64,000 bases of DNA, from NCBI RefSeq assembly GCF_018687475.1, contig NZ_CP061292.1, positions 1,736,001-1,800,000 of the forward strand. The letters run 5' to 3'. Both the position numbers and the translations under genes were made by a program. The notes below the pieces were generated by a model that was not told the DNA's origin, made no database searches, and worked only from the letters and a program-made list of their open reading frames with translations. Origin of the DNA: Polynucleobacter sp. MWH-UH24A (lineage in GTDB: Bacteria; Pseudomonadota; Gammaproteobacteria; Burkholderiales; Burkholderiaceae). Shown piece after piece: positions 46,223-49,465 of the stretch; positions within the stretch are counted from its first letter, which is position 1; each line of letters opens with the position of its first letter.

Positions 46223-47059
46223 CTATCGTTTTTGGCACTGAGGGCAATAGTAGGTCGAGCGCTGATTCTGGGTAATTTGCCGAATCGGTGTTTTACACAC
46301 CCGACAAGGTTCGTTGGCTCGATCGTAAACTTTAGTTTGCATCATGAAGTAACCCGGTTCACCGTGCGCATCCACAAAATCGCGCAGGCTACTTCCACCG
46401 GCTGCAATGGCTTTCTTTAAAATGGTTCGGACAGCATGGGCCAACCGCTCACATTGAGCTTTGGTTAACTTACCTGCGGATACGCCTGGGTGAATCCCCG
46501 CTTCGAACAAGGATTCCGAGCAATAAATGTTGCCGACGCCAACCACCGCTTGCCCAGCCAACAAAAATGCTTTTACTGAAACACTCCGCTTACGAGAATA
46601 CTGATATAAACGTGTTGCACCCAATTGCCCAGCAAACTCCTCGGCAAGCGGCTCCGGCCCTAATTTTTGAATTAAAGAGTGATGCAGTACATCGCCCTTG
46701 GTGGCTGGGTGCCATAAGACAGCGCCAAATTTTCGGGGGTCGTGGAGTCGTAAAGTAAGTTGATCGAAATGAATCACGACCCGATCGTGTGGCTTTAGGG
46801 GATCCTTCCGCGCTAGCACACGCAGTACCCCGGTCATACCCAAGTGAATGATCAAGTAGCCATTGGTCATTTTGAGTAATAAATACTTCCCCCGGCGTTC
46901 GATCACATCAAGCCGTTGGCCCATCAGAATTTTTGGCAAGCCCCGAGGAACAGGCCAACGCAGTCGCCCATCAATTACATCCACATGGGTGATCTGGCGC
47001 CCCTCTAGGTGTGGCTTGATTCCCAAGCGAGTGACTTCGACTTCTGGTAATTCTGGCAT
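46223..47059 (-). CDS. mutM: Formamidopyrimidine-DNA glycosylase MutM/Fpg
   Basis: The 278-residue protein starts with the catalytic PELPEVEV (Pro2 nucleophile, Glu3), contains VGVGNIYCSESLF in the H2TH region, and ends with a zinc finger with cysteines in CRVCKTPI and YYCPQCQ. It excises 8-oxoguanine. With mutY directly downstream it forms an oxidised-guanine repair operon. It is divergent from the TPR-LolB gene across about 30 bases. Confidence 0.97.
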   Translation of the reverse strand: MPELPEVEVTRLGIKPHLEGRQITHVDVIDGRLRWPVPRGLPKILMGQRLDVIERRGKYLLLKMTNGYLIIHLGMTGVLRVLARKDPLKPHDRVVIHFDQLTLRLHDPRKFGAVLWHPATKGDVLHHSLIQKLGPEPLAEEFAGQLGATRLYQYSRKRSVSVKAFLLAGQAVVGVGNIYCSESLFEAGIHPGVSAGKLTKAQCERLAHAVRTILKKAIAAGGSSLRDFVDAHGEPGYFMMQTKVYDRANEPCRVCKTPIRQITQNQRSTYYCPQCQKR

Positions 47060-47088: not shown

Positions 47089-48594
47089 GTGCTGATGGGT
47101 AACCGATTTACTTTCATTTTGGCAAAACTGCGTCTGAAGCATCTATTGCTTTGGGCTGCTTGGTGCTGCTCTTTGGGTTTTATCCCACTCACTTCAGCAC
47201 AGACCAAAGGGGCCACGAGTGAGCAGGTGTTTGAAATACTTGCTTCTGAAATTGCTCTACAACGTGGTGAGGCTGGATTGGCCTATCAAACCTACCTGAG
47301 TCTGGCACGTCAAACCGCCGATCCCGCCTTAGCTCAACGCGCGATGGAGATTGCAATTGCAGCGAATGCGGCGGATCTTGCTTTAATCGCTGCACAAACT
47401 TGGGATGAATTATCAAAGCCTGGTCAAAGTAAGCCTAAAGAAGTATTGGTCACTCTGCTGATGCTCAATCAACGGTGGTCTGATGCTGTTGCACCAGCGA
47501 TCGCTCTTCTAAAGGGACAAAGCCTTAAAGAGCGTGAACAAATTTTGCAACAGTGGCAGAGCTTATTGAGTCGGGCTCAAGATGAGGGTGCAGCTTTAAA
47601 CGCGTATTACAGAATTGTTGCGGCCCTGGTTCCGCCCCCTACCAATCCACAAATTTTATATACCTATGCTCTAGCAGCCGAAAAGTCTGGTCAGTTTGAG
47701 GTGATGGAAAAAACGTTACGAACCATCATCGAGCGCAATCCAAATGATATTCAAGCACTCAATGCGCTTGGGTACTCCTTGGCCGACCGAAACATCCGAC
47801 TTAAAAATGCCTATGAGCTTATCCTTAAAGCCCATAACCTGGATCCCAAAGATCCCTTTATTTTAGATAGTTTGGGTTGGGTTAATTTTCGCTTAGGCAA
47901 TAAAGAACTTGCCTTAAAACAGCTTCAAGACGCATTTCGGATTAAACCTGAGGCAGATATTGCTGCTCATCTTGGCGAAGTGCTGTGGATCCTAAATCGG
48001 CCCATTGAAGCAGAGGAAGCTTGGCGACAAGGCGAGCTAATCGATGCGAATAATGCCACCCTCCGGGAGACCTTAAAGCGCCTAAAACCATCTTGGGCAA
48101 TCTCTATGGATATCGTCGCCAGTCAATGGGATGGTCGTTTTGCAGTGAGAGCAAGTGATCGACCTACTAACAATAATCAAGGCGGATCGGGTAGCTTTAC
48201 TCTCACCAAAAATGGCTTAAGCGACACCCTAGAAATTCGAGGGCCAATGGGCGGTGCAATTGCCAAAATTACAATTAACCCCGGTGAAGCGATCCTAGAA
48301 CGGGATGGCAAAAAAGTGAGTGCCATTGATGCAGATACCTTAATTCAGAATACCTTAGGGTTACCACTTCCTGCGCGGGGTTTATCCAATTGGCTCAATG
48401 GACAACTACGTGCCGGCAGCCCGGCGCGACTTGAACGTGATAATCAGGGTCAAGTAAAGCGTATCTCCCAAGATGGATGGGATTTGGCCTACGTGTGGAA
48501 TGAAAGCAAGAAGATCGAGCGCCTCACCATGACCAGAAACACGAATACTGGCTCGATTGATGTGCGCTTAATTTTTGATCAAGTGAATGAGTAA
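47089..48594 (+). CDS. Fusion of a TPR protein with a LolB outer-membrane lipoprotein-insertion domain
   Basis: The protein is 501 residues. An N-terminal signal peptide (about 1-37, possible cut after LTSA) leads into helical TPR-like repeats (about 43-332) with NPNDIQALNALGYSLADRN and DPFILDSLGWVNFRLG. Residues about 347-500 form a LolB-like domain: WDGRFAVR, LEIRGPMGGAIAKI, LGLPLPARGLSNWLNG and ISQDGWDLAYVW. No second signal or lipobox cysteine precedes the LolB part. In relatives a TPR gene and lolB are separate neighbours ahead of ispE. GTG 47089 and ATG 47095 are both possible starts. It overlaps ispE by eight bases. Confidence 0.85.
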   Translation: MLMGNRFTFILAKLRLKHLLLWAAWCCSLGFIPLTSAQTKGATSEQVFEILASEIALQRGEAGLAYQTYLSLARQTADPALAQRAMEIAIAANAADLALIAAQTWDELSKPGQSKPKEVLVTLLMLNQRWSDAVAPAIALLKGQSLKEREQILQQWQSLLSRAQDEGAALNAYYRIVAALVPPPTNPQILYTYALAAEKSGQFEVMEKTLRTIIERNPNDIQALNALGYSLADRNIRLKNAYELILKAHNLDPKDPFILDSLGWVNFRLGNKELALKQLQDAFRIKPEADIAAHLGEVLWILNRPIEAEEAWRQGELIDANNATLRETLKRLKPSWAISMDIVASQWDGRFAVRASDRPTNNNQGGSGSFTLTKNGLSDTLEIRGPMGGAIAKITINPGEAILERDGKKVSAIDADTLIQNTLGLPLPARGLSNWLNGQLRAGSPARLERDNQGQVKRISQDGWDLAYVWNESKKIERLTMTRNTNTGSIDVRLIFDQVNE

Positions 48595-49465
48595 TCACCT
48601 CGAGCTTCTTGCTCCAGCCAAAATTAATTTATTTCTTCATGTAACCGGTCGACGTCCAAACGGATATCACGAACTTCAATCCGTGTTTCAGTTGGTAGAT
48701 TGGTGTGATCGATTGTGTTTTAGTACGACCGATCGAGACACAATTATTCGACATGGCGGCGACCCAACTGTTCCCCCTGAAAAAGATTTGGTCGTGCGTG
48801 CTGCCCAATTACTGAAAAGCCACACGAACTATCCATACGGAGTTGAAATTCATCTTAAAAAAAATATTCCGATTGGGGCAGGCTTAGGTGGAGGATCATC
48901 CGATGCGGCCACCGTGTTGATTGCTTTGAACCAACTCTGGAATCTTCATCTCCCTAAAACTGAATTGAGTGAACTTGGATTGCAGTTAGGTGCCGATGTG
49001 CCATTCTTTTTATTTGGTCACAATGCATTTGTACAGGGAATTGGCGAGCAACTTGAATGCATTGATTTACCAAATCAAGAGTTCCTAATTATTTTTCCAG
49101 GACACTCCGTGTCAACCCAAACCGTCTTTCAATCCGATCAATTGACCCGAAATCATGCTCCGATTACAATAGTAGACTTTCTCGCAAATACTGGTGATGT
49201 TGGGCAATTCACAAACGACCTACAACCAGTGGCTTGTGAGCTCTGCCCTGAAGTAAATCGAGCATTAAATTGGTTAGCTCAAACGCTCCCAGATGCTACT
49301 CGTCGAATGTCTGGATCGGGTAGTAGTGTGTTTGCCGTCCTACCAGAATCGATCAAGCGATACGATCTGGAACAAAAGATGCTCAATCTTCCCTCAGGGT
49401 GGGTGGGTCGGCTTGTTCGGGGACTAAAACAAAATCCCGCTTACAATTCGGTTTTATCAGTATGA
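48587..49465 (+). CDS. ispE: 4-diphosphocytidyl-2-C-methyl-D-erythritol kinase IspE
   Basis: This 292-residue GHMP kinase of the MEP isoprenoid pathway shows LLAPAKINLFLHVTGRRPNGYH, the ATP loop PIGAGLGGGSSDAATVL, and the C-terminal RMSGSGSSVFAVL. It starts inside the end of the TPR-LolB gene (overlap of eight bases), so translation is probably coupled. A tRNA gene follows seven bases after its stop. Confidence 0.96.
   Translation: MSNHLELLAPAKINLFLHVTGRRPNGYHELQSVFQLVDWCDRLCFSTTDRDTIIRHGGDPTVPPEKDLVVRAAQLLKSHTNYPYGVEIHLKKNIPIGAGLGGGSSDAATVLIALNQLWNLHLPKTELSELGLQLGADVPFFLFGHNAFVQGIGEQLECIDLPNQEFLIIFPGHSVSTQTVFQSDQLTRNHAPITIVDFLANTGDVGQFTNDLQPVACELCPEVNRALNWLAQTLPDATRRMSGSGSSVFAVLPESIKRYDLEQKMLNLPSGWVGRLVRGLKQNPAYNSVLSV

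Follow-up and report, generated by a model that had tools for sequence, protein, structure and literature searches.

An in-frame fusion of an LbcA-like TPR protein to a LolB domain without a lipobox in the genus Polynucleobacter

In Polynucleobacter, the outer-membrane lipoprotein receptor LolB is encoded as the C-terminal domain of a larger protein that carries no lipobox and whose N-terminal half is a shortened homologue of LbcA, the adaptor that activates CtpA, a protease. Wild-type E. coli cannot do without LolB, and the anchoring of LolB in the outer membrane is thought to ensure the right destination of its cargo (PMC11784454). If, as it seems, a whole genus manages with one LolB domain that has no anchor, nature itself would provide a test of the need for that anchor, and an insertion step that is normally anchored may be able to work without one. 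The identity of the fusion partner additionally hints at a tie between lipoprotein insertion and the CtpA-controlled turnover of cell-wall hydrolases. Public databases already name the fused protein, for example as LolB/TPR repeat protein; new here are the recognition of the partner as an LbcA homologue, the fixation of the fusion across the genus, the presence of a matching CtpA and the evidence for selection. Among the open-licence literature matches listed, no paper on a LolB fusion or on LolB in Polynucleobacter was found; the single paper containing both words uses them in separate contexts.

The fused gene and its occurrence

The window analyzed is a stretch of 64,000 nucleotides from Polynucleobacter sp. 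MWH-UH24A (contig NZ_CP061292.1, positions 1,736,001 to 1,800,000). The fusion gene occupies 47089..48594 on the + strand and consists of one frame of 501 codons, open throughout and with zero internal stops. It starts with GTG, with an alternative ATG two codons downstream (47095). Encoded in order on the same strand are a Sec/SPase I-like signal peptide without lipobox, delimited by eye (residues 1-37, 47089..47199), an LbcA-like N-terminal adaptor region (residues 41-148, 47209..47532), LbcA-like C-terminal TPR repeats (residues 171-332, 47599..48084), a junction (residues 333-346, KPSWAISMDIVASQ, 48085..48126) and the LolB domain (residues 346-498, 48124..48582). The end of the gene overlaps the conserved neighbour ispE (48587..49465, + strand) by 8 bases, and mutM (46223..47059, − strand) lies upstream in divergent orientation. 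The initial annotation had described an uninterrupted 501-residue frame joining TPR repeats to LolB, and the fusion is confirmed as real: a complete LolB domain follows the TPR part in the same frame, with 13 residues separating K333 from W347.

To what extent the fusion is shared was evaluated in 121 sampled Polynucleobacter genomes. Exactly one match to the Pfam LolB profile PF03550 was present in 117 of these, each time in a fused frame (three of these 117 loci end at a contig end), and the four genomes lacking a match are drafts that are 78 to 85% complete. All 96 good-quality genomes of the genus have a match. A stop or frameshift hidden by an assembly error, which the initial annotation had named as a possible source of the fused frame, is thus excluded, because the same fused frame recurs in all 117 matching members, and the fusion is genus-wide rather than confined to one genome. 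A second lolB, the other finding that the initial annotation had named as refuting, was not detected: in the complete single-contig genome (1,915,272 bases) the fusion is the sole PF03550 match, bearing in mind that this model can miss strongly diverged LolBs, as it does in family f17 of the order (see below).

Both halves of the fusion are under strong purifying selection. The median dN/dS over 23 independent pairs of moderate divergence is 0.041 in each half, the largest value for LolB being 0.094; over all 108 pairs of this divergence, the medians are 0.043 for LolB and 0.036 for the TPR half.

Querying named genomes with the fusion sequence gave five loci: four fusions, one of them truncated where its contig ends, plus an LbcA from Massilia. 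Beyond the genus, no fused frame was found among the best-scoring matches listed for the order (399 genomes) and the class (370 genomes). A frame was counted as fused when its row extended beyond residue 340 of the query with no stop in frame, and the three or four top candidates of each genome were scored. Rare fusions in more distant genomes may still exist.

The LolB domain and its missing lipobox

The LolB half is a complete domain. PF03550 matches residues 346-498 with an E-value of 2.7e-24 and 86.4 bits, against a gathering cut-off of 23.7, and covers profile positions 4-150 of 151, in line with the whole-length match to LolB that had been noticed from the sequence. The NCBIfam equivalog model for lolB, TIGR00548, matched below its cut-off of 59.6, at 45.7 bits for the whole fusion and 49.2 for the LolB part. 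Solved LolB structures match the domain with an E-value of 4.8e-06 or weaker.

In E. coli LolB, the tip of the hydrophobic hook is Leu68 (PMC10368991). Its counterpart lies in the hook of the fusion (residues 385-389, GPMGG, 48241..48255, placed by the column counts over the genus) and is Met387. The initial annotation had singled out this methionine; it is indeed present, but it is not distinctive, as the position alternates among V (52), M (40), I (13), L (10) and F (2) in the 117 genus members, and we therefore discarded it as a special feature. The tip is hydrophobic in 117/117 fusions, and Gly388, Trp435 and Trp464 are invariant in the same set. A more distinctive change than the hook methionine is at residue 372 (48202-48204), which is Leu in all 117 LolB domains of the genus. 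The LolBs of relatives that were examined by eye have Trp at this position, within a motif like G-x-F-x-W, and by eye the residue corresponds to Trp52 of E. coli LolB, of which the W52P variant is defective (PMC10368991). The domain resembles the LolBs of E. coli and other proteobacteria in its completeness, in a hydrophobic hook set between Pro and Gly, in the conserved Trp435 and in being the only PF03550 match of its genome. It differs from them in the Leu at the Trp52 position, in missing the TIGR00548 cut-off, in being the C-terminal part of a larger protein and in having neither a lipoprotein signal nor a lipobox.

This last difference was followed across the genus. Judged by eye, the N-terminus of the fusion, MLMGNRFTFILAKLRLKHLLLWAAWCCSLGFIPLTSAQ, is a Sec-type signal peptide with TSA|Q at its end, so that the mature protein would begin near residue 38; the two cysteines of the signal region lie inside the hydrophobic stretch and are not part of a lipobox. 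N-termini and junctions were surveyed in the 115 genus members whose sequence stretch includes the N-terminus (2 of the 117 do not). A strict lipobox pattern occurs at 0/115 fused N-termini and a loose one at 7/115, while an AxA string is present in 76/115; a cysteine anywhere in the first 75 residues is found in only 35/117 fusion frames, the 117 including the two without an N-terminus. The fusions at loci L188, L214 and L227 contain the lipobox-like string LLLASAC in the signal region.

At the junction, the place where separate LolBs have a signal peptide, a lipid-bearing cysteine and a tether, even the loose pattern gave no lipobox-like string in any of the 115 members, which agrees with the initial description of a junction devoid of signal peptide and lipobox cysteine. 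Its length (residues 334-346 and counterparts) varies from 11 to 16 residues and is exactly 13 in 96/115. The fusion in the window has a Met at residue 340; among the 20 junction rows compared, this Met is present in only four.

As a control, the same patterns were applied to separate LolBs outside the genus, within a span of at most 90 residues about the start of the domain, where a few matches may be due to chance; one locus (L087) yielded no frame and another (L147) was left out. The strict lipobox was found in 60 of 82 rows and the loose one in 70 of 82. After removal of 20 repeat rows of the same genomes, 44 of 62 distinct LolB genes retained a strict lipobox, and the other 18 show by eye a Cys after a hydrophobic stretch.

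Within the family, the two halves are usually separate neighbours. Of 20 loci drawn from 14 further genera, 18 have TPR and lolB as separate frames; at these 18, the stretch also includes ispE in 17 cases, mutM in 15 and prs in 14. The order given in the initial annotation, a TPR gene and lolB preceding ispE, is thus common in these relatives. Among the 18 separate TPR proteins, 16 have readable N-termini, which by eye are mostly plain signal peptides with no clear lipobox, that of locus L089 being ambiguous. Within the family, it thus seems that only the LolB member of the TPR/LolB pair bears an anchor, and it is this anchor that the fusion is without. A deletion that removed the stop codon of the TPR gene together with the signal peptide, cysteine and tether of LolB would be the simplest origin of the fusion. 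Nine family genomes have no PF03550 match. In genus g8, two loci from genomes of 1.2 Mb (L098 and L100) keep lolB and ispE, with no LbcA-like or TPR gene upstream in the stretch, and the small genomes G127 and G182 are without a PF03550 match.

The LbcA-like half and CtpA

Pfam TPR models match the fusion at residues 187 to 288, and the best NCBIfam TPR model, PrsT (TIGR02917), scores 50.3 bits, far under its cut-off of 312.2. The closest solved structures are those of P. aeruginosa PA4667 (LbcA), namely 8sxe_C (E 7.5e-42) and 7rqf_A (E 3.4e-41). By phmmer, residues 171-332 align with 8sxe_C 378-539 at an independent E-value of 3.7e-36, and residues 41-148 with 8sxe_C 16-123 at 0.0026, a match that is weak when taken alone. 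Residues 124-377 of the LbcA chain stand opposite only 22 residues of the fusion, leaving some 230 middle residues without a counterpart; with this middle absent, the 11-TPR spiral of LbcA is not present in the fusion. The TPR repeats of the initial annotation therefore stand, but its generic TPR protein does not: this half is best described, on the basis of these alignments, as a shortened homologue of the CtpA adaptor LbcA.

The N-terminal helix H1 of LbcA binds and activates CtpA (PMC8764530, PMC11021448), and the LbcA-CtpA complex degrades cell-wall hydrolases (PMC6050968). A counterpart of H1 is seen by eye at about residues 46-59 of the fusion. Nine hydrophobic residues of LbcA have been named as CtpA contacts (PMC11021448). 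Leu53, Tyr54, Leu56 and Leu57 align with V47, F48, I50 and L51 of the fusion, and Val58, Leu61, Ala62 and Val87 with A52, I55, A56 and L81, so that eight of the nine counterparts are non-polar, which holds nearly throughout the genus. The ninth contact, Phe48, is matched by the polar Thr43 and, across the genus, usually by Ser or Thr.

A corresponding protease is available. The Polynucleobacter genome contains a single S41 protease match, whose best match is P. aeruginosa CtpA (E 5.3e-110). Numbering its H1 by eye from PMC11021448, Leu is kept at the positions of Leu41, Leu43 and Leu46, Leu, Ser and Phe replace Phe49, Ala50 and Leu53, respectively, and Lys57 and Asp66 are kept. Most of the CtpA-contact residues of LbcA, along with a matching CtpA, are thus present in Polynucleobacter, and the fusion probably serves CtpA as well. 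The loss of about 230 LbcA residues may nevertheless have reduced the adaptor function.

The likeness to LbcA extends from the adaptor region and the C-terminal TPRs to the gene neighbourhood, as lbcA of P. aeruginosa shares its operon with the genes lolB and ipk (PMC6050968). On the other hand, LbcA is lipidated at Cys17 (PMC11021448), while the fusion has no lipobox, is without the middle residues and is joined to LolB. A further parallel is NlpI-Prc of E. coli, which likewise pairs a TPR adaptor with a C-terminal processing protease in the control of cell-wall hydrolases (PMC6050968); NlpI, however, is described as not homologous to LbcA (PMC11021448) and is an outer-membrane lipoprotein.

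Proposed function, alternatives and origin

The rest of the pathway is encoded too, in the form of LolA, a single LolC/E-type protein and BamD (lipobox LLTSC), so that lipoproteins still must reach the outer membrane. With this the only LolB detected in the genome, the unanchored domain would have to do the job of LolB. The reading that we favour with fair confidence is that a soluble periplasmic LbcA-LolB fusion does so, and that it probably serves CtpA too. The frame, the missing lipobox, the neighbour genes and the sole PF03550 match all support the initial annotation in its overall reading of a fusion with an unanchored LolB. The fusion would be exported as one soluble, non-lipidated periplasmic protein with a double task. 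Close to the mature N-terminus, a helix would dock on CtpA and activate it, and the remaining TPRs would present substrates to the protease. The C-terminal LolB half would take lipoproteins from LolA and insert them into the outer membrane by means of its hydrophobic hook. Preference for the outer membrane could be due to the hook as such or to partners that the TPR part binds. We infer solubility, LolB activity, CtpA activation and outer-membrane targeting from the features described above.

Experiments in E. coli bear on such an arrangement. A periplasmic version of LolB (mLolB) accepts cargo from LolA (PMC10368991), and mLolB has been reported to missort outer-membrane lipoproteins to the inner membrane (PMC10368991, citing Tsukahara 2009). 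An unanchored LolB is therefore expected to be costly, and by analogy Polynucleobacter must have solved or tolerated this type of mislocalisation; as one way around it, the TPR part might bind partners in the outer membrane or the cell wall. Other rearrangements of the last Lol steps that involve no separate LolB lipoprotein are the bifunctional LolA of Caulobacter and an engineered LolA-LolB chimera (PMC11784454). In these, LolB function is joined to LolA, whereas in Polynucleobacter LolA is separate and LolB resides on a protease adaptor.

The same bifunctional LolA, together with the existence of bacteria without LolB (PMC11784454), lends some plausibility to the idea that the LolB domain is vestigial or does something else, lipoproteins being inserted by LolA alone or by a diverged LolB that Pfam misses. 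The missed TIGR00548 cut-off, the genus-wide Leu at the Trp52 position and the blindness of PF03550 to the LolB-like genes of family f17 point the same way. We nonetheless consider this improbable: a remnant would hardly be expected to remain complete, with a dN/dS of about 0.04 like that of the TPR half, to keep Gly388, Trp435 and Trp464 invariant and the hook tip always hydrophobic in 117/117 members, and to be present in 96/96 good-quality genomes. It also seems unlikely that the fusion is anchored in a membrane after all, either in the inner membrane by an uncleaved signal peptide or through a lipidated cysteine of the signal region. The AxA string is present in only 76/115 N-termini, and seven of the 115, the LLLASAC of the three loci named above among them, contain a loose lipobox-like string; yet the strict lipobox is absent from all 115, most of the 117 frames have no cysteine at all in their first 75 residues, and a LolB held in the inner membrane would presumably insert lipoproteins into the wrong membrane.

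There is, in addition, a slight chance that the two halves act apart, the protein being cut after export or a separate LolB being made from an internal start. A cut is conceivable, since LbcA is slowly degraded when CtpA is present (PMC11021448), and Met340 could serve as such a start. A product started there would, however, be without a signal peptide, few of the junction rows compared share the methionine, and the near-constant length of the junction also argues for an intact protein.

A more speculative idea concerns the combination of the two halves. Genes of the LbcA and LolB types are adjacent in P. aeruginosa, in 18/20 loci of the family and in 10/10 loci of family f17, where the partner is a diverged LolB-like gene, and three of the four reported hydrolase substrates of LbcA-CtpA in P. 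aeruginosa are predicted outer-membrane lipoproteins (PMC6050968). It is imaginable, if rather doubtful, that the fusion physically couples two fates of outer-membrane lipoproteins, so that in one place a lipoprotein hydrolase delivered by LolA could be either inserted or passed on to CtpA. Such a coupling, if true, would link lipoprotein sorting to cell-wall growth.

Family f17 also bears on how LbcA became short. PF03550 is absent from 11/11 genomes searched in this family, and in 10/10 loci (L119-L128) a separate small lipoprotein with LolB-like motifs (G-R-F, F-E-W) lies between a short LbcA and ispE; these lipoproteins are probably diverged LolBs that Pfam misses. As the TPR frames of f17 are also short, the family was considered as a sister of Polynucleobacter with the same short LbcA. 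This was rejected: in a tree of TPR and IspE sequences from 37 of 40 loci (L089, L098 and L100 were dropped, one gene being missing in each), f17 groups with genera g21 and g22, with a support of only 57, and apart from Polynucleobacter. LbcA may thus have been shortened once or more than once. Short LbcA-like frames beside separate lolB genes are likewise seen at two loci of genus g21 (L094 and L095) and one of g22 (L096).
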